This document shows positions 16,440 to 23,942 of a stretch of DNA of 64,000 bases, in pieces. The notes beneath the pieces are model-generated. The model was not told the origin of the DNA, ran no database searches, and was given only the letters and a program-made list of their open reading frames with translations. This DNA is from Microbacterium arborescens (GTDB taxonomy: Bacteria; Actinomycetota; Actinomycetes; Actinomycetales; Microbacteriaceae). The stretch lies in contig NZ_CP128474.1 in the NCBI RefSeq assembly GCF_030369635.1, positions 682,001 through 746,000 on the forward strand, read 5' to 3'. The position numbers and the translations under genes are program-made. How positions within the stretch are numbered: the stretch's first letter is position 1; every line of letters starts with the position of its first letter.

Positions 16440-17765
16440 TCAGAAGGCGTCGAGGTCGGCGCGCAGGCCCTGACCGGTGTGCTCGGTGCGCAGGATGCCG
16501 CGCCGCCGGAGCACCGGAACGAGCTCGTCGAGCGCTCGGTGCAGTGTGACGGGGTGGAAGTCTCCCGAGAAGATCAGACCGTCGTTGTCGGCGTCGTCGC
16601 CGAGCGCCTGGATGACGTCGGCGATCTCCTCCGCGGTCCCCACCGTTCCTCCGGCGCCGTCGGTCACGCGACCGAGCCGTGCCTTGCCGGCGAGGATGTC
16701 GCGCAGCGGCGCCTCCGAGAAATCGGAGTATCGGCCGAGCAGGCCCCGGATGGTGCCTTTCGAGACGTGATCGCCGAAGATCGCGGGGTCGAGCGGGCGG
16801 TCGAGATCGAGCGTCGTGAGGTCGGTCTCGAGGTCGCTCGACCAGGCCTCGGCGACCTCGACGAGGGTCGCCTCGTCCGGGTGGCGTGACGCCTCGACGA
16901 TGCGCTCCGCCTCGTCGGCCGAGCTCGCGACGATCGGCTTGAAGACGAAGAAGGTCTTGACGGCGTCGGCATCCCGGCCCGCAGCGCGCGCCGCCTCGCG
17001 CACCCGGGCGCGGTAGGCGCGGATGCTCGCGGGATCGAGGTTCGACAGGGCGAGCTGGATCTCGGAGTTCGCACCGGCGAAGCCGATGCCCCGGGGGGAG
17101 CCGCCGGGCGAGGCCACGATCGGATCACCGGCGGCCAGCGGCTCGGCATTCAGTGGACCGTCGAACGAGAAGTACTCGCCCCGGTGCCGGACGGCGTGGA
17201 TCTTCGAGCCGTCGGCGTAGATCTGCGTGTCGGGGTCGGCGATCAGCGCGTCGTCGTCCCAGCTGTGCCAGAGCAGGCGCAGGGCGTCGAGCCATTCCTG
17301 GGCGCGGTCGTACGCTGCATCGTGACCGAGGCGCTCGGTGCCGAAGTGGTGCGCCGAGCCGACGTCGGTGACGACGTTGAGTCCGAGCCGGCTGCCGCTG
17401 AGGTGCTGCAGCGATGCGAACTGACGGGCCGCGAGGTACGGCGGCCAGGCGGCCGGATTGACGGTGGGGATCACGCCGAGGTGCTGCGTCGCGGCGAACA
17501 GGTACGGCGCGAGTGTCCACGGGTCGTGCTTCGGCCCGCCGTAGGCCTTGCGCACCCGCAGATTGAGCGTCTCGGGGGTGATGCCGACCGAGAGCGCGTC
17601 TTCGATGAGGACGAAGTCGAACCCCGCCTGCTCGAGCTCGCGCGCCGAGTGCTGGTAGAGGTCGGGCTTCTGCCACGGCCAGTTCCACCGCTGGTAGGGC
17701 CGAGCCCAGCCGTGGGGACCGAAACCTCGGGAGAGGAACCACCCGAAATGCTGCGTGCGGGTCAC
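16440..17765 (-). CDS. LLM-class flavin-dependent monooxygenase (NtaA/SnaA/DszA family)
   Basis: 441-residue reduced-flavin monooxygenase. The N-terminus (FGWFLSRGFGPHGWARPYQR) and the HLSGSRLGLNVVTDVGSAHH segment are typical of the nitrilotriacetate/dibenzothiophene-sulfone group, which needs a separate flavin reductase. The GTG at 17765 overlaps the stop of metY by four bases (GTGA), a very tight coupling that suggests the monooxygenase frees sulfur that MetY then fixes into homocysteine. A flavin reductase gene lies 2.4 kb away at 20166. The long open frame continuing upstream through metY is not coding. Substrate, such as a sulfone or thioether, is inferred. Confidence 0.8.
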   Translation of the reverse strand: MTRTQHFGWFLSRGFGPHGWARPYQRWNWPWQKPDLYQHSARELEQAGFDFVLIEDALSVGITPETLNLRVRKAYGGPKHDPWTLAPYLFAATQHLGVIPTVNPAAWPPYLAARQFASLQHLSGSRLGLNVVTDVGSAHHFGTERLGHDAAYDRAQEWLDALRLLWHSWDDDALIADPDTQIYADGSKIHAVRHRGEYFSFDGPLNAEPLAAGDPIVASPGGSPRGIGFAGANSEIQLALSNLDPASIRAYRARVREAARAAGRDADAVKTFFVFKPIVASSADEAERIVEASRHPDEATLVEVAEAWSSDLETDLTTLDLDRPLDPAIFGDHVSKGTIRGLLGRYSDFSEAPLRDILAGKARLGRVTDGAGGTVGTAEEIADVIQALGDDADNDGLIFSGDFHPVTLHRALDELVPVLRRRGILRTEHTGQGLRADLDAF

Positions 17766-19099
17766 GCCGACACCGCCTCCGACACATCGGCGGTCGCGGC
17801 CGCGGCCGCGATGAGCCCGCGCTCGAGGTCGGCGATGAGGTCGCCGGTGTCCTCCAGCCCGACCGAGAGCCGCAGGAGCCCCGGTCCGACGCCGATCCGC
17901 TCGAGATCGGCGTCGCTGCGGCTGGCGTGGGTGGTGGTCGCGGGATGCAGCACGAGCGACCTCACATCGCCGAGATGGGTCATCGGGGTGAACAGCCGGA
18001 CGCTGCGGGTGAATGCCTCCGCGGCTGCTCTCCCGCCCGCGAGGGTGAAGGAGAACAGGGCGCCCTGCCCGGCCGGGAGGAGGCGGGCGGCGAGGTCGTG
18101 GTCGGGGTGCGAGGCGAGTCCGCTGTAGTCGACGCCGACGACCTCGGGGCGCGTCTCGAGCCAGGCAGCGAGCGCCGCCGCCGTCTGCGATTGGCGAGCC
18201 ACGCGCAGCGAGAGGGTCTCGATGCCCTGTAGCAGCAGGAACGCGTTGAGGGGCGACGGTGACGGACCGAAGCGCATCGCGACGCGTCGTGCCGTGTCGA
18301 GGAAGGCTCTCTCGCCCGAGCGTTCGACGAACGTGCGGCCGTCGGGTCCGGTCTCGGAGGCGATCTGGCGGAAGCGTCCTGGTACCGCATCCCACGCGAA
18401 GCGTCCGCCGTCGATGATGACGCCGCCGAGGCCCGTGCCGTGGCCCGACAGGAACTTCGACGCGGAGTGGATGACGATGTCGGCACCCAGCTCGAGCGGA
18501 CGCAGCAGGTACGGGGTCGCGAGGGTCGAGTCGACCACGAGCGGGATGCCGTGGCGGTGTGCGACCTCGGCGACGGTGGGGATGTCGAGCACGCCGCCGC
18601 GTGGGTTGGCGATCGACTCGGCCACGAGGGCGCGGGTGCGCGGGCCGATCGCCGACTCCCAGGCGGCGGGGTCGCGCGGGTCGTCGACGAAGTCCGTCGT
18701 GATCCCGAGCCGTGCGAACTCCGAGCGCAGCAGCTCGCGCGTGCCTTCGTAGATCGCGGAGGCGGCGACGATGTGATCGCCGGATTCCAGGATCGTCAGC
18801 AGCGCCGTCGTCGTCGCCGCCTGGCCGCTGCCGACCAGCAGCGCTCCGACGCCACCCTCGAGATCGGCGATGCGCCGCTCGGCCGCCGCCGCCGTCGGGT
18901 TGCCGACGCGCGTGTAGCTGAAGCCCGTGGCGGGGTCGGCGAAGCGGCCCTCGCCGTCGGCGATGTCGTCGAACTCGAACCCGGCGGTCAGATAGATCGG
19001 TGTCGCGCGCGAGCCGTACGCGTCGAAACCGCGGGCCCCCGCGTGCAACTGACGCGTCGCGAAGGCGAGGGATTCGGGGTTGTTCTCCAGAGCGGACAT
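17762..19099 (-). CDS. metY: O-acetylhomoserine sulfhydrylase (PLP enzyme)
   Basis: 445-residue Cys/Met-metabolism PLP enzyme that makes homocysteine from O-acetylhomoserine and sulfide. The PLP lysine is in HSASKFLSGHGTGLGG, the cofactor-phosphate region is LVGSGQAATTTALLTILESG, and the substrate loop GFSYTRVGNPTAAAAERRIA matches MetY. Length (longer than the 380-residue MetB type) supports sulfhydrylase over gamma-synthase. The ATG at 19099 follows GGAGG closely. It is the first gene of a two-gene unit with the LLM monooxygenase and is divergent from a rhodanese gene. Confidence 0.85.
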   Translation of the reverse strand: MSALENNPESLAFATRQLHAGARGFDAYGSRATPIYLTAGFEFDDIADGEGRFADPATGFSYTRVGNPTAAAAERRIADLEGGVGALLVGSGQAATTTALLTILESGDHIVAASAIYEGTRELLRSEFARLGITTDFVDDPRDPAAWESAIGPRTRALVAESIANPRGGVLDIPTVAEVAHRHGIPLVVDSTLATPYLLRPLELGADIVIHSASKFLSGHGTGLGGVIIDGGRFAWDAVPGRFRQIASETGPDGRTFVERSGERAFLDTARRVAMRFGPSPSPLNAFLLLQGIETLSLRVARQSQTAAALAAWLETRPEVVGVDYSGLASHPDHDLAARLLPAGQGALFSFTLAGGRAAAEAFTRSVRLFTPMTHLGDVRSLVLHPATTTHASRSDADLERIGVGPGLLRLSVGLEDTGDLIADLERGLIAAAAATADVSEAVSA

Positions 19100-19180
19100 G
19101 GAGGGAAGAGTACGGCGGGCGACCGAGGCGGCGCTTTCGTCTCGTCATGCGGAGTCACGCGGCGCCTGTCGGCCGCCCTC

Positions 19181-19220
19181 GTGTGTCGCCCTGTGTTCTC
19201 ATGTGTCGCCCTGTGTTCTC
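19181..19220. repeat. Tandem 20-base repeat between metY and rhodanese genes
   Basis: GTGTGTCGCCCTGTGTTCTC is followed immediately by ATGTGTCGCCCTGTGTTCTC, differing at the first base. The pair lies 82-121 bases upstream of metY and 62-101 bases upstream of the divergent sulfurtransferase, the usual place for regulator sites. No start codon with a ribosome site overlaps it. Confidence 0.55.
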
Positions 19221-19281
19221 GTGTTTCCGACTGTTTCGCCGGGGGAGGTGGGCCGGGGGCGGTCGTGGCGAGCATGGGGTC

Positions 19282-20139
19282 ATGTCCCCCCTGGTGAGCG
19301 TCGACGACCTCGCCGCCGAACTCGCCGCGGACGCTCCCGTGCGGCTGCTGGATGTCCGGTGGCGGCTGGACCGCGCCGAAGGGCGGCCCGACTACGTGAG
19401 CGGGCACCTGCCCGGCGCTGTCTACGTCGACCTGGAGCGCGAGCTCGCTCGCCCCGGTGTTCCCGAGCAGGGGCGGCATCCGCTGCCCGGTCGCGCCGAC
19501 CTCGAGGTCGCGATCCGACGCTGGGGTGTCACCGCGGGTGACCGTCTCGTCGCCTACGACGACAACGACGGCGTCGCGGCAGCCCGCGCATGGTGGTTGC
19601 TGCGCCGTCACGGCCTCGACATCCGCGTGCTCGACGGAGGTTTCCGGGCGTGGGTCGCATCGGGCCGACGTCTCGAGCGCAGTGATCGCGCCGCGGCGGC
19701 CGGCGATGTGGAGCTGCCGGAGGGGAGGGGCGGTCTCGCCGGTATCGACGAGGCGGCCGTCGCTCCGGCCCGAGGCGTGCTGCTCGACGTCCGCGCGCCA
19801 CAGCACTACCGCGGTCAGACGGTCGGGGCCGACCCGGTCAGCGGGCACATCCCGGGCGCGCTCAATCTTCCTACGGTCGTCCACATCGCCCCGGACGGGT
19901 TGCTGCGAAGCCCCGACGAGATCCGTGCCTCGCTCGCAACAGTGGGCATCGGTCCCGACACGGATGTCGTCATCACGTGCAGTTCGGGAATCGCCTCGGC
20001 TCACACCGCCCTCGCCTTCGCCGTCGCCGGATACGGCCGTGCGCGGGTGTTCGCGGGATCGTGGAGCCAGTGGTCTCGCGACCGCGGCCGTCCGGTCGCG
20101 ACCGGTCCCAGCCCGGCCGCCGCGATCGGCGTCGTCTAA
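19282..20139 (+). CDS. Rhodanese-type sulfurtransferase
   Basis: 285-residue two-domain rhodanese that would move sulfane sulfur from thiosulfate or 3-mercaptopyruvate to a thiol acceptor. Domain 1 (residues 1-125) has VRLLDVRWRLDRAEGRPDYV but no active cysteine. Domain 2 carries LLDVRAPQHYRGQTVG and the catalytic loop VITCSSGIASAHTAL, which differs from the usual CxxGxTA. The ATG at 19282 is chosen by homology of the start; the open frame extends much further left. It is divergent from metY, in keeping with sulfur assimilation. Confidence 0.85.
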   Translation: MSPLVSVDDLAAELAADAPVRLLDVRWRLDRAEGRPDYVSGHLPGAVYVDLERELARPGVPEQGRHPLPGRADLEVAIRRWGVTAGDRLVAYDDNDGVAAARAWWLLRRHGLDIRVLDGGFRAWVASGRRLERSDRAAAAGDVELPEGRGGLAGIDEAAVAPARGVLLDVRAPQHYRGQTVGADPVSGHIPGALNLPTVVHIAPDGLLRSPDEIRASLATVGIGPDTDVVITCSSGIASAHTALAFAVAGYGRARVFAGSWSQWSRDRGRPVATGPSPAAAIGVV

Positions 20140-20165
20140 TAGACGACGATCTGATCTGACGACGA

Positions 20166-20735
20166 TCAGTCGCGGAGGGCGGAGCCCTCGCTGAGGCGGT
20201 GCCACGTGCGGTTGTGGTAGACCAGTGCGTCGCCGTGACCGCCCGGCTCGACGTCGCGTTCGACGTGAGACTGCAGGGCGTGGCCGGCGATGACGATGGA
20301 GCCGCCCGCATCCATGCGCGACACGACCGCGCAACGGACCCACGCACGCACGCCGCGGTACACGGGCTCTCCCGTAGTCAGCCGTGACCAGGTCGAGGTG
20401 TCGGCGAAGCGATCGATGCCGCTCGTCGCGCCGAGCTTCGCGAGCGGAAGGTCGTCGGCGTCGAGGAGATGCACCACGACGGTCTCGGCCGTCGACAGCA
20501 CCGCCGAGGCGGACGACTGCGCCGACACCGAGAACACCAGCAGCGGCGGGTCGGCGCTCACCGACGACACCGAGGTCGCCGTCAGCGCGACCGGGCCGTC
20601 GCCTGCGTCAGCCGTGATGACGGCGACACCGCCGGGGTGCCCGCGGAAGAGCGTCTTGAAGTCATCGGCGGACAGCGAGCCGCCCAGATGACGGGAGGGG
20701 TGCTCCGCGGACGGGTCGATGTTCGGCTGAGACAT
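20166..20735 (-). CDS. Flavin reductase-like protein
   Basis: 189-residue FMN-binding protein of the flavin reductase family, which supplies reduced flavin to two-component monooxygenases. Signatures are FRGHPGGVAVITADAGDGPV near residue 33, then TATSVSSVSADPPLLVFSVS and the RFADTSTWSRL region. It is the natural partner for the LLM monooxygenase at 16440. The ATG at 20735 has no ribosome site but stands seven bases after a TAACGT -10, mirrored exactly by the divergent nitroreductase gene; a longer start at 20756 would sit upstream of that -10 and is rejected. Confidence 0.8.
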   Translation of the reverse strand: MSQPNIDPSAEHPSRHLGGSLSADDFKTLFRGHPGGVAVITADAGDGPVALTATSVSSVSADPPLLVFSVSAQSSASAVLSTAETVVVHLLDADDLPLAKLGATSGIDRFADTSTWSRLTTGEPVYRGVRAWVRCAVVSRMDAGGSIVIAGHALQSHVERDVEPGGHGDALVYHNRTWHRLSEGSALRD

Positions 20736-20742
20736 GATCACG

Positions 20743-20813
20743 ACGTTAGTAACCACGAAGGCTCACCACATGTTCCGTGAACGTCGGAGACGATCGATGA
20801 CGCCATGTAACGT
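20743..20813. promoter_or_regulatory. Mirror-image leaderless promoters of a divergent pair
   Basis: TAACGT occurs on the minus strand at 20748 to 20743 and on the plus strand at 20808-20813, each exactly seven bases before its start codon (ATG at 20735, GTG at 20821). Both genes are thus expected to begin transcription at the start codon. A small dyad GTTC-CGT-GAAC lies between them and could be a shared regulator site. Confidence 0.6.
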
Positions 20814-20820
20814 TCCCCGC

Positions 20821-21636
20821 GTGACGACGAAACCCCACGACGGATGGTCGCGCCGGTACGGCTCGGCTGCGCCCCACGACGACCTTCCGCGCAACGACGT
20901 GCTCGACCTGCTCTACCGTCACCGTTCCGTGCGCCGGTTCGCGCCCGGCGAGATCGACGATGCGACACTGACCGCGATCGTCGCCGCGGCGCAGTCGGCG
21001 TCGACGAGCTCGAACCTGCAGGCGTGGTCGGTCATCGAGGTGCGCGACCCCGAGCGGCTCGACGCGCTCGCGACGCTCGCCGGCGACCAGGACTTCATCC
21101 GCCGGGGCGGCGTCTTCCTCGTCTTCGTCGCGGACTGGGCCCGCGCGCGCGAGCTCGCACACCGAGCGGGGGAGAGGTCGGACGCCGTCGAGTACATCGA
21201 GAGCACGATCGTCGGCTTCATCGACGCGGCGCTCGCCGCCCAGAACGCCGTCGTCGCGGCGGAGTCGCTGGGGCTCGGCGCCGTCTACGTCGGAGCCGTC
21301 CGAAACCACCCCGAGCAGATCGCCGACCTGCTCGAGCTTCCCGTGGGCGCCTTCCCCGCGTTCGGTCTCGTGCTCGGTCGCCCCGACCCGGACGATCGCG
21401 CCGGGGTGAAGCCGCGATTGCCGCAGCGGGTCGTCCGTCACCGCGAGACCTACCGCATGCCGGTCGACGCCGACATCGCCGCATACGAGGAGGCCGTCAC
21501 GGCGTACTACCGCGCGCAGGGCGAGCCGCGGGGCTGGCTGCGCGCCGCGATCGCGCGGGTGCGGGATGCCGCCAGCCTGCACGGGCGTCACACGCTGCGC
21601 AGCTCTCTCGAGCGGCGCGGGCTGTCGTCGCGCTGA
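20821..21636 (+). CDS. NfsA-type nitroreductase family flavoprotein
   Basis: 271-residue FMN oxidoreductase of the NfsA/FRP group. The FMN-phosphate motif HRSVRRFAPGEIDDATLTAI is near residue 34, the AAQSASTSSNLQAWSVIEV helix follows, and the C-terminal LPQRVVRHRETYR closes the active site. Such enzymes reduce nitroaromatics, quinones or flavin with NADPH. The GTG at 20821 is chosen because TAACGT lies seven bases upstream; the frame is open further left without a ribosome site. It is divergent from the flavin reductase and precedes the cysteine operon on the same strand. Confidence 0.8.
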   Translation: MTTKPHDGWSRRYGSAAPHDDLPRNDVLDLLYRHRSVRRFAPGEIDDATLTAIVAAAQSASTSSNLQAWSVIEVRDPERLDALATLAGDQDFIRRGGVFLVFVADWARARELAHRAGERSDAVEYIESTIVGFIDAALAAQNAVVAAESLGLGAVYVGAVRNHPEQIADLLELPVGAFPAFGLVLGRPDPDDRAGVKPRLPQRVVRHRETYRMPVDADIAAYEEAVTAYYRAQGEPRGWLRAAIARVRDAASLHGRHTLRSSLERRGLSSR

Positions 21637-21654: not shown

Positions 21655-21683
21655 TCGACAGCGCCCCGGCCCTGGCCTAGGGT
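21655..21683 (+). promoter_or_regulatory. Promoter of the cysteine operon leader
   Basis: TCGACA (21655-21660) and TAGGGT (21678-21683) are 17 bases apart. The -10 is followed by six bases and the GTG of the leader peptide, so transcription is predicted to start at that GTG. Confidence 0.65.
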
Positions 21684-21689
21684 GGACGC

Positions 21690-21716
21690 GTGCAGACCTG
21701 TCGTTGTTGTCGCTGA
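21690..21716 (+). CDS. Cysteine-codon leader peptide (leaderless, 8 residues)
   Basis: GTG-CAG-ACC-TGT-CGT-TGT-TGT-CGC-TGA encodes MQTCRCCR: three Cys in eight codons, in a strongly GC-biased genome where TGT is a rare codon. The GTG is the predicted transcription start, because TAGGGT ends six bases upstream. It sits 77 bases before a cysteine/cystathionine synthase gene. Short leaderless frames with Cys runs are known in mycobacteria as cysteine-responsive attenuators of sulfur genes; this looks like the same device. Ribosome stalling when Cys-tRNA is scarce would change folding downstream. The frame is too short to judge by composition alone; the promoter geometry and gene context make the case. 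Confidence 0.7.
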   Translation: MQTCRCCR

Positions 21717-21785
21717 GCGCCGCCGCGCTCACCTCAGACGACCCCGACAGCACCCGCGCCTCTGAGCGCGCGGACACCGTGAGGA
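21714..21785 (+). promoter_or_regulatory. Candidate attenuator structures of the cysteine operon
   Basis: TGAGCGC (21714-21720) and GCGCTCA (21725-21731) form a 7-base stem whose left arm contains the leader stop codon. CTCAGA (21733-21738) can pair with TCTGAG (21761-21766). CCTCA (21732-21736) can instead pair with TGAGG (21780-21784), which covers the GAGGA ribosome site of the next gene. The last two pairings exclude each other, as an attenuator or sequestering switch requires. Folding energies were not computed. Confidence 0.45.
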
Positions 21786-21792
21786 CACCCTC

Positions 21793-22791
21793 GTGCGCTA
21801 CGCAGAGAACATCGCCGAACTCGTCGGCAACACACCCCTGGTCCGGCTGAACCGTGTCGCCGCGTCGACGCGGGCGACCGTGCTCGCCAAGATCGAGTAC
21901 TTCAACCCGGGCAGTTCGGCGAAGGACCGCATCGCCGCGAGGATCATCGAGGCCGCCGAGCGCGACGGCTCGCTGCGGCCGGGGGGAACGATCGTCGAAC
22001 CCACGAGCGGCAACACCGGTGTCGGCCTCGCTCTCGTCGCGCAGCAGCGGGGATATCGGATGGTCTTCGTCGTTCCCGACAAGTTCGCGGGCGAGAAGGT
22101 CGCGGTGCTGAAGGCATACGGAGCCGAGATCGTCATGACTCCCACGAGCGTGCCGCCCGAGCATCCGGATTCGTACTACAGCGTCTCAGACCGGCTCGCG
22201 CGGGAGATCCCCGGCGCGTTCAAGCCCAACCAGTTCGCCAACGCCGCAGGACCCCGCGCGCACTACGAGACGACTGGACCCGAGATCTGGCGCGACACGG
22301 ACGGACGCGTGACGCACTTCGTCGCCGGTGTCGGCACGGGCGGCACGATCACGGGCACCGGCCGGTACCTCCGCGAGGCCTCTTCCGGAGCCGTCACGAT
22401 CGTCGGCGCCGACCCCGACGGCTCGATCTACAGCGGCGACGTCGGCCGGTACCTCGTCGAAGGCGTCGGTGAGGACTTCTGGCCCGAGACCTTCGACCCT
22501 TCGATGGTCGACCGTTACGAGCGGGTGGGCGATCGCGAGTCGTTCGCGATGACGCGTCGCCTGGCGCGCGAGGAGGGTCTGCTCGTCGGCGGCTCGTCGG
22601 GCATGGCGGTGGTCGCCGCGCTTCGCACCGCCCGCGACCTCGGGTCCGACGACATCGTCGTCGTTCTGCTCCCCGACCACGGCCGCGGATATCTCTCGAA
22701 GATCTACGACGACGACTGGATGCGCGCCCACGGCTTCGCCGACCTCGTCGACGATCCCCACACCACCCCCGACACCAGGAGCGACGCATGA
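21793..22791 (+). CDS. Cysteine/cystathionine beta-synthase, PLP enzyme
   Basis: 332-residue fold-type II PLP enzyme. The PLP lysine is in NPGSSAKDRIAARIIEAAER, the substrate loop is PTSGNTGVGLALVAQQRGYR, and the phosphate-binding GVGTGGTITGTGRYL follows near residue 180. The sequence is nearest to cystathionine beta-synthases, yet the two C-terminal CBS regulatory domains found in many of these are absent. It would make cystathionine from serine and homocysteine, or cysteine from O-acetylserine and sulfide. The GTG at 21793 follows GAGGA. It overlaps the next gene by four bases and lies behind the Cys-codon leader. Confidence 0.85.
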   Translation: MRYAENIAELVGNTPLVRLNRVAASTRATVLAKIEYFNPGSSAKDRIAARIIEAAERDGSLRPGGTIVEPTSGNTGVGLALVAQQRGYRMVFVVPDKFAGEKVAVLKAYGAEIVMTPTSVPPEHPDSYYSVSDRLAREIPGAFKPNQFANAAGPRAHYETTGPEIWRDTDGRVTHFVAGVGTGGTITGTGRYLREASSGAVTIVGADPDGSIYSGDVGRYLVEGVGEDFWPETFDPSMVDRYERVGDRESFAMTRRLAREEGLLVGGSSGMAVVAALRTARDLGSDDIVVVLLPDHGRGYLSKIYDDDWMRAHGFADLVDDPHTTPDTRSDA

Positions 22792-23942
22792 CCACGCACG
22801 ATTCCGCCCGCGGCCTCGCCAGCCTCGCGGTCCACGCCGGCCAGGAGTTCGACCCCACGACCGGCGCCGTCATCCCGCCGGTGCACTTCTCCACCACCTT
22901 CACCCAGGACGGGATCGGGGGCCTCCGCGGCGGGTACGAGTACGGCCGTTCGGGCAACCCGACGCGCACGGCGCTCCAGGTGCAGCTCGCCGCGCTCGAG
23001 GGCGGAGCTCACGGCTTCTCGTTCGCGTCGGGGCTCGCCGCTGAGGACGTGCTGCTGCGTGCCGCGCTGACGCCCGGCGACGAGGTGCTGCTCGGCAACG
23101 ACGTCTACGGGGGCACACATCGTCTCATCGCGCGTGTCCTGGCTCCCTGGGGTGTCAAGCTGCGCGTGGTCGACATGAGCGACCTCGCCGCCGTGCGGGC
23201 CGCGGTCGCCGAGCGCGCGCCCCGCGTGCTGTGGGTCGAGACGCCGTCCAACCCGCTGCTGCGCATCACCGATATCGCCGGGCTCGCAGCCATCGGTCAT
23301 GAGGCCGGCTCGCTCGTCGTCGTCGACAACACCTTCGCGACACCGGCGCTGCAGCGCCCCCTCGAACTCGGCGCCGATGTGGTCGTGCACTCGACGACGA
23401 AATACCTCGGCGGACACTCGGATGTCGTCGGCGGCGCACTCGTGCTCGACGATGACGCGCTCGCCGAGAAGATCGGCTTCCTGCAGTACGCCGCCGGCGC
23501 GGTGTCGGGGCCGATGGATGCCTGGCTCACCACGCGCGGCATCAAGACGCTCGACGTCCGTATGCAGCGCCACAGCGAGAACGCGGGCGCGATCGCAGCG
23601 TTCCTCGAGGGACACGAGCGCGTGGCTCGCGTGTTCTATCCCGGTCTCGCCTCGCACCCGGGGCACGAGCTCGCGGCATCGCAGATGATCCGTTTCGGCG
23701 GCATGCTCTCGCTCGCGCTCGAGTCGGGTGAGGCGGCACGTCGCTTCGCCGAGTCCACGCGGCTGTTCCAGCTCGCTGAGTCGCTCGGCGGGGTCGAGTC
23801 GCTCGTGAACTACCCCGATGCGATGACCCACGCGTCGGTCCGCGGCACCGAGGCCGCCGTGCCGGTCGAGGTCGTCCGGCTCTCGGTGGGCATCGAGTCG
23901 GTGGACGATCTGCTGGCCGACGTGGAGCAGGCGCTGCGCTGA
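22788..23942 (+). CDS. metB: Cystathionine gamma-synthase/gamma-lyase
   Basis: 384-residue fold-type I PLP enzyme of the Cys/Met family. PLP lysine in VVHSTTKYLGGHSDVVGG, YEYGRSGNPTRTALQVQLAA near residue 44, and SSLxDRP-like C-terminal region replaced by NYPDAMTHASVRGTEAAVP. Length fits MetB or the gamma-lyase MccB/CTH type; sequence alone does not separate them. The ATG overlaps the stop of the upstream synthase (ATGA). Together the two enzymes interconvert homocysteine and cysteine through cystathionine, and the Cys-codon leader favours the reverse transsulfuration (cysteine-making) direction. Confidence 0.85.
   Translation: MTTHDSARGLASLAVHAGQEFDPTTGAVIPPVHFSTTFTQDGIGGLRGGYEYGRSGNPTRTALQVQLAALEGGAHGFSFASGLAAEDVLLRAALTPGDEVLLGNDVYGGTHRLIARVLAPWGVKLRVVDMSDLAAVRAAVAERAPRVLWVETPSNPLLRITDIAGLAAIGHEAGSLVVVDNTFATPALQRPLELGADVVVHSTTKYLGGHSDVVGGALVLDDDALAEKIGFLQYAAGAVSGPMDAWLTTRGIKTLDVRMQRHSENAGAIAAFLEGHERVARVFYPGLASHPGHELAASQMIRFGGMLSLALESGEAARRFAESTRLFQLAESLGGVESLVNYPDAMTHASVRGTEAAVPVEVVRLSVGIESVDDLLADVEQALR

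Follow-up and report, generated by a model that had tools for sequence, protein, structure and literature searches.

What is the function of a frame of eight codons, three of them for cysteine, that stands 76 nt upstream of a gene of the cystathionine beta-synthase (cbs) type in Microbacterium arborescens? The frame lies within the window, i.e., the whole stretch of 64,000 nucleotides that was analysed, and the original prediction had assigned to it the role of a leaderless leader peptide within a probable cysteine-sensing attenuator. All features described in the following are located on the plus strand. The frame itself, GTG-CAG-ACC-TGT-CGT-TGT-TGT-CGC-TGA, occupies positions 21690 to 21716, encodes VQTCRCCR and is recognized as a short ORF of the leaderless type by its sequence and its conservation; it begins 6 nt after the -10 hexamer TAGGGT (21678 to 21683), which is separated by 17 nt from the -35-like hexamer TCGACA (21655 to 21660), both being promoter-like elements by sequence. 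Re-reading of positions 21655 to 21716 found the letters and coordinates given earlier for TCGACA, TAGGGT and the GTG frame to be correct, and the observation of a Cys-codon leader at 21690 is confirmed; transcription and translation, we infer, both start at this base. For comparison, 103 distinct leaders were derived from 122 loci, comprising 96 of the Microbacterium type and seven from other genera. The -35-like element of the window leader matches at five of six positions, and at least four of six are matched in 35 of the 103 leaders; the -10-like hexamer, for which distances of 5 to 8 nt were allowed, precedes the start codon by 6 nt in 74 and by 7 nt in 29 of them, a spacing that fits a transcript beginning at the start codon. 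A standard sigma-70 scan reported no promoter at the leader at its threshold of 9/12 matches, and comparison of positions 21690 to 21793 with Rfam gave nothing above the gathering score, the sole match within the window being a tRNA located elsewhere. One match to the pattern TANNNT-6-RTG-6-TGY-3-TGYTGY was found in the window, and 100 shuffled versions gave no match. A window scan identified six leaderless-type short ORFs, none of which, apart from the VQTCRCCR frame, has two Cys codons or more, and ten Markov shuffles of the window yielded no short ORF with adjacent cysteines (CC) and one with three cysteines. In the source genome (3.37 Mb) the exact leader motif has one site and no further one at one mismatch; judged by motif match alone, up to three mismatches give 37 sites versus 25 for the reversed control.

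The Cys codons and their spacing, whose lack of conservation in close relatives the original prediction had listed among the findings that would refute it, were found to be conserved. A CBS protein search of 118 genomes gave matches in 116, and the upstream DNA was read for 70 loci. A Cys leader with a GTG start, 8 to 11 codons and two or more Cys codons is present at each of the 43 Microbacterium loci at which cbs is short (the whole gene being read for 30 and the class being assigned from open frames of 285 to 406 aa for 13), and its GTG invariably follows TANNNT by 6 or 7 nt. Where cbs is long, at six Microbacterium loci among the 70 read, the Cys leader is absent, and in other families of the order one of 21 loci has it (L041, family f14), with the peptide MVLCIRLCCC and a cbs of 454 aa. 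The leader was further identified in 72 of 80 named loci from genome contigs, a set in which L123, L124 and L162 gave a different or longer frame in one scan and the short frame in another; in six of 28 loci from other genera of the Microbacteriaceae (L182 to L209); in L210 among four further loci (L210, L211, L216, L217); and in one of 28 class-level loci, namely L234 of the same family, in a set of which two loci (L243, L248) look misplaced and two (L247, L259) come from genomes already read. At seven long-cbs loci from four other genera of the Microbacteriaceae the leaders are divergent and the Cys codons are kept, and the Cys-containing peptides identified outside Microbacterium are VFLSCCRH, MSQLCCRR, VFLNCCCR, VFLSCCRR, VWSSFPCCRCR, VIRLSCCRR, VTFTCRCCR and VLLTCCCCRRSDRP. 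The last of these, from L234, contains four consecutive Cys codons; the cbs that follows it at a distance of about 120 nt has an open frame of 499 aa. Runs of Cys codons close to the stop codon are conserved, a few variants having separated ones only (e.g., VLTCRCRR, VALTCRCPR), and leader length is 8 to 11 codons among the 103 and 8 to 14 residues across relatives. Longer Microbacterium leaders resembling VLTCRCCRPCC, with extra Cys codons, occur at L015 to L018, L021, L024, L036 and others. Within Microbacterium the nucleotide motif of the leader is almost invariant, and its exact form CTGTCGNTGTTGTCGC, listed at 75 sites, is present in 73 of the 198 Microbacterium genomes searched, compared with a single one for the reversed control.

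Judged by family names and the order of genes, the leader heads a cysteine-metabolism operon. The first gene (21793 to 22791; 332 aa) is of the cystathionine beta-synthase/cysteine synthase type, PALP (PF00291; residues 8 to 295) being the only family that Pfam finds in its product, and the second (22788 to 23942; Cys_Met_Meta_PP, PF01053), a Cys/Met PLP enzyme of the cystathionine gamma-lyase or synthase type, shares the letters ATGA at 22788 with the end of cbs, in agreement with the earlier reading of a cysteine/cystathionine synthase gene followed by an overlapping cystathionine gamma-synthase/lyase gene. Among loci with at least 300 nt downstream, counted without deduplication, a relative of the PLP enzyme follows cbs on the same strand at 105 of 106 leader loci and at 28 of 29 others, with its aligned start within 90 nt at 101 and 25 of them, respectively; as the gene pair is also kept at loci without the leader, it is broader than the leader. 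The start of cbs differs between both kinds of loci: TANNNT 5 to 8 nt before cbs occurs at none of 106 distinct leader loci versus 26 of 58 without leader, and a Shine-Dalgarno-like 4-mer at 98 of 106 versus 22 of 58. Judged by these upstream sequences, cbs appears to alternate between two states, being often leaderless where the Cys leader is absent, or Shine-Dalgarno-led behind a leaderless Cys leader, and this alternation suggests a route of origin in which the leaderless start passes from cbs to an ultra-short frame. Relatives without leader whose cbs looks leaderless include L044 to L049, L182, L184, L186 and others.

The cbs proteins of other genera mostly comprise 453 to 458 aa, a length which suggests C-terminal CBS domains, versus 332 aa in the window. 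Since the leader is present at 101 of 101 short-cbs loci (a redundant set in which two genes are cut by the locus end), RNA control may substitute for control at the enzyme level. A strict link between the leader and a short cbs was rejected in view of two Microbacterium loci that combine a long cbs with the leader (L225, 463 aa; L229, at least 451 aa) and of L211, from another genus, which has a short cbs without it. At L213 (genome G034), where the Cys leader is normal, the cbs frame ends after 254 residues, and the protein search matched residues 1 to 182 only. Positions 16440 to 21636 hold genes for a luciferase-like monooxygenase, a second Cys/Met PLP enzyme, a rhodanese, a flavin reductase and a nitroreductase, which, we infer from these families, may constitute an organosulfur set. 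PAPS/APS reductase (PF01507) gave no match in the source genome and matches in 28 of 71 Microbacterium genomes searched, and NIR_SIR gave one match in the source genome. A link between the leader and the loss of sulfate reduction was considered and rejected, as none was seen: PAPS reductase was found in 19 of 43 leader genomes versus nine of 28 other Microbacterium genomes, the region upstream of cbs having been read in six of the latter.

Downstream of the Cys codons, fold prediction and conservation identify a hairpin that begins with the stop codon (UGAGCGC-CGCC-GCGCUCA, 21714 to 21731). A stem at this position had been foreseen, and it was found to be conserved, with compensatory changes, in the set of 103 leaders. 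For the first 24 nt counted from the stop codon, the mean z versus letter shuffles is -2.27, at least four base pairs are formed in this stretch in 101 of the 103, and the pairs at position +3 (G-C in 51, A-U in 38, C-G in three) and +4 (C-G in 58, G-C in 20, U-A in 11) are compensatory, the stems being those of the individual folds, a choice biased towards pairing. In six divergent leaders of other genera (z -0.92 to 0.86) and in a few Microbacterium leaders (e.g., L007, L115, L127, L129) the stop stem is no better than shuffled letters. In the longer-leader group the position of the hairpin (UGAAGC..GCUUC) shifts together with that of the stop codon, in support of a role linked to the latter.

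The Cys codons themselves are predicted by folding to form the 5' side of a second pairing, P1 (CUGUCG plus GUUGUC, 21698 to 21711), the 3' side of which is region C, a conserved anti-Cys element at 21736 to 21751 that was delimited by conservation and folding and reads AGACGACCCCGACAGC in the window and CGACGACCCCGACAGC as consensus. Over the 103 leaders the Cys tract and the region-C stretch pair at a mean of 0.66 per base, versus 0.26 with shuffled leader codons; the value exceeds 0.5 in 91 leaders and that of the own shuffles in 101, and the mean pairing of region C to the leader is 0.61 per base. The leader-region C duplex amounts to -14.66 kcal/mol for native, -14.36 for swapped and -8.30 for shuffled partners, and the swap test on duplexes, in which some region C blocks are misplaced, barely beats permutation (59 of 2000 as good). 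Covariance, which the original prediction had proposed as a check, was found for the stop-codon stem and is almost nil for P1, with 86.9% paired natively versus 86.4% with partners swapped between species in the 67 of 103 leaders that were used, 36 being left out for poor register or other peptide type; P1 does not covary because both of its sides are nearly invariant. The evidence for P1 is complementarity, not covariation. A further hairpin, P2 (CCGCGC..GCGCGG, 21754 to 21773; fold prediction), immediately upstream of the ribosome site, is predicted in the window only in the stalled-state fold, and among the 103 leaders its stretch is self-paired above 0.4 in 75 in the free and in 67 in the stalled state. 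Once the Cys tract is blocked, no single partner of region C prevails (0.18 with the cbs start, 0.14 with itself). Pairing of region C with the ribosome site or with P2 was rejected as a candidate, being no better than for shuffled letters and small in the folds. RNAalifold on a plain MAFFT alignment returned almost no structure (8 pairs) because the variable hairpins were misaligned, and was superseded by a block-wise analysis.

In the mycobacterial attenuator model the downstream Shine-Dalgarno sequence is masked by RNA structure unless the ribosome stalls. A pairing that covers the ribosome site of cbs, whose Shine-Dalgarno-like GAGGA is located by sequence at 21781 to 21785, had likewise been proposed for the window, and this part of the original prediction is not specifically supported. 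Blocking of the Cys tract lowers the mean opening energy of the ribosome site from 6.82 to 5.95 kcal/mol over the 103 leaders, and shuffled leaders behave alike, the drop being 0.86 kcal/mol for native versus 0.61 for shuffled codons (Wilcoxon p = 0.41; the native value being the higher one in 50 of 103) and, for the 96 Microbacterium-type leaders, 0.72 versus 0.55 (p = 0.64), with eight of these lying above and one below its own shuffles by two standard deviations. In the window the opening energy is nearly unchanged by blocking (11.1 versus 10.4 kcal/mol). When the leader is kept unpaired, the mean accessibility of the Shine-Dalgarno sequence goes from 0.39 to 0.47, with an increase in 29 of 43, and the complementarity of leader and ribosome-site region is -11.0 versus -8.5 for shuffled letters, without species specificity (569 of 2000). 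For the seven leaders of other genera the drop is 2.90 versus 1.44 for shuffled codons (p = 0.30), two of the seven exceeding their shuffles by two standard deviations, and in L185, L189, L193 and L195 the gain is 3.0 to 5.1 kcal/mol, above the mean of their own shuffles. Shine-Dalgarno masking is accordingly a feature that the folds do not specifically predict for Microbacterium and that may exist in some other genera. As the native effect on the ribosome site resembles that of shuffled leaders, the switch that is supported in Microbacterium is P1 being formed or unformed.

Considering all this, the interpretation originally given is partly supported as a whole, and the leader is probably a cysteine-sensing, ribosome-stalling attenuator of the cbs operon, the output of which would most likely be translational. 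According to this model, when Cys-tRNA is plentiful the ribosome would reach the stop codon and depart, whereupon the Cys tract is predicted to pair with region C and, together with the stop-codon hairpin, to form one long 5' hairpin near the ribosome site; with P1 formed, cbs expression would be low. When Cys-tRNA is scarce, the ribosome would stall on the UGU codons and block P1, which would leave region C largely single-stranded, and cbs and the next gene would be expressed more. For the output, control of translation, e.g., by letting the 30S subunit reach the leader, would be the most likely means, and not intrinsic termination. A more detailed version for Microbacterium dispenses with Shine-Dalgarno masking and assumes that the Cys codons serve as one arm of P1, that stalling unmasks a C-rich element (a standby, protein or Rho site), and that cbs alternates between a leaderless state without the leader and a Shine-Dalgarno-led state behind it; it is put forward tentatively and is rather doubtful.

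A trp-type attenuator with a terminator was rejected: a window scan identified no intrinsic terminator between leader and cbs, and at least five U among the eight positions after the stop hairpin occur in three of 103 leaders, the window having one of eight. With neither U-tract nor terminator, any termination would need Rho, and a cysteine-sensing leader in which the ribosome position gates access of Rho to C-rich RNA before cbs is the alternative that survives best, yet it is unlikely. Region C and its surroundings are indeed C-rich and conserved, the hairpins lack a following U-tract, and Rho was proposed for similar leaders in 2005, with a prediction that the relevant section of that paper calls "rather weak" (PMC1262725); against this, the C-rich element is predicted to be free in the stalled and paired in the released state, which is the opposite of what induction upon starvation would demand. 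Clearly less probable still is a purely RNA-based element, in which the TGT runs would be retained because they pair with region C, without any sensing of cysteine. Such an element would account for the near invariance of the nucleotide motif in Microbacterium and for the codon choice, TGT making up 300 and TGC 21 of the 321 Cys codons in the 103 leaders, versus seven TGT and 43 TGC in 25 window ORFs, which were picked for high GC3 and thereby favour TGC (an earlier count of ten window ORFs, some with doubtful starts, gave seven TGT and four TGC). The TGT excess is compatible with pairing in P1 (UGU with ACA), with slower decoding, or with the two combined. Other genera keep the Cys codons amid different nucleotide contexts, the frame, the start spacing and the nearby stop codon are all kept, and the operon belongs by family to cysteine metabolism, all of which speaks against an RNA that ignores cysteine. 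That the peptide acts in trans, e.g., as a Cys-rich metal-binding micropeptide, is highly improbable: TCRCCR is strongly conserved as a peptide in Microbacterium, but length and remaining residues vary in relatives, and of 15 among the 75 motif sites that were read (picked for second copies and new genomes), 12 directly precede cbs and the other three (L218, L220, L221) are unrelated and no such leaders. A chance ORF is refuted by conservation and deserves practically no credence, given the leader at 43 of 43 short-cbs loci, its absence from the shuffles and the spread of the exact motif over genomes.

The cysteine-sensing attenuator proposed here can be placed beside several known systems. 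In mycobacteria, leaderless polycysteine ORFs were reported in which the speed of elongation through Cys codons controls downstream translation by attenuation, as summarised in PMC9031893 with reference to Canestrari et al. 2020, which bears out the original statement that poly-Cys leaderless attenuators are known there; the same work is cited as translation attenuation in PMC13236596, where the general form is outlined as an RNA structure masking the downstream Shine-Dalgarno sequence unless the ribosome stalls, and is also referred to in PMC9094748, and Cys-rich leaderless uORFs in mycobacteria are described in the pertinent part of the report by Shell and colleagues (PMC4633059). The Microbacterium leader shares with these, as far as the excerpts of those sources describe them, the short ORF of the leaderless type, the runs of Cys codons and the position upstream of the putatively regulated genes, and differs in having cbs first, a length of 8 to 11 codons in the 103 leaders and a subsequent stop-codon hairpin and anti-Cys element. 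Seliverstov et al. 2005 predicted Cys leader peptides before cys operons (Mycobacterium, Propionibacterium acnes) and before cbs of Bifidobacterium longum, and the genome list in the sections concerned includes Leifsonia xyli, which is not named there among the cases, and lacks Microbacterium (PMC1262725). The earlier statement that no such leader had been described in this family stands as regards Microbacterium, for which a literature search that left most subscription journals outside its range found none, and is to be qualified by the B. longum cbs leaders predicted in 2005. The candidates of that paper are likewise short ORFs with Cys runs near the stop codon, in B. longum before cbs, without obvious terminator; according to the sections cited, no conserved terminator-capable hairpins were seen in Mycobacterium, whereas the Microbacterium stop hairpin is conserved and covaries (PMC1262725). 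Streptomyces lividans, also an actinobacterium, possesses leaderless short leader ORFs before amino-acid genes (trpL1, leuL1, leuL2, ilvL), which, in the portion of PMC8079986 considered, concern other amino acids and have U-rich terminators in several cases. By its anatomy as read from sequence, the Microbacterium leader is a member of the known Cys-leader kind; new are the member from the Microbacteriaceae, its RNA architecture and the alternation with a leaderless cbs. About 100 natural variants make leader, stop-codon stem and anti-Cys element separately testable and, if the model holds true, control by leaderless Cys leaders extends from mycobacteria to another large actinobacterial genus.
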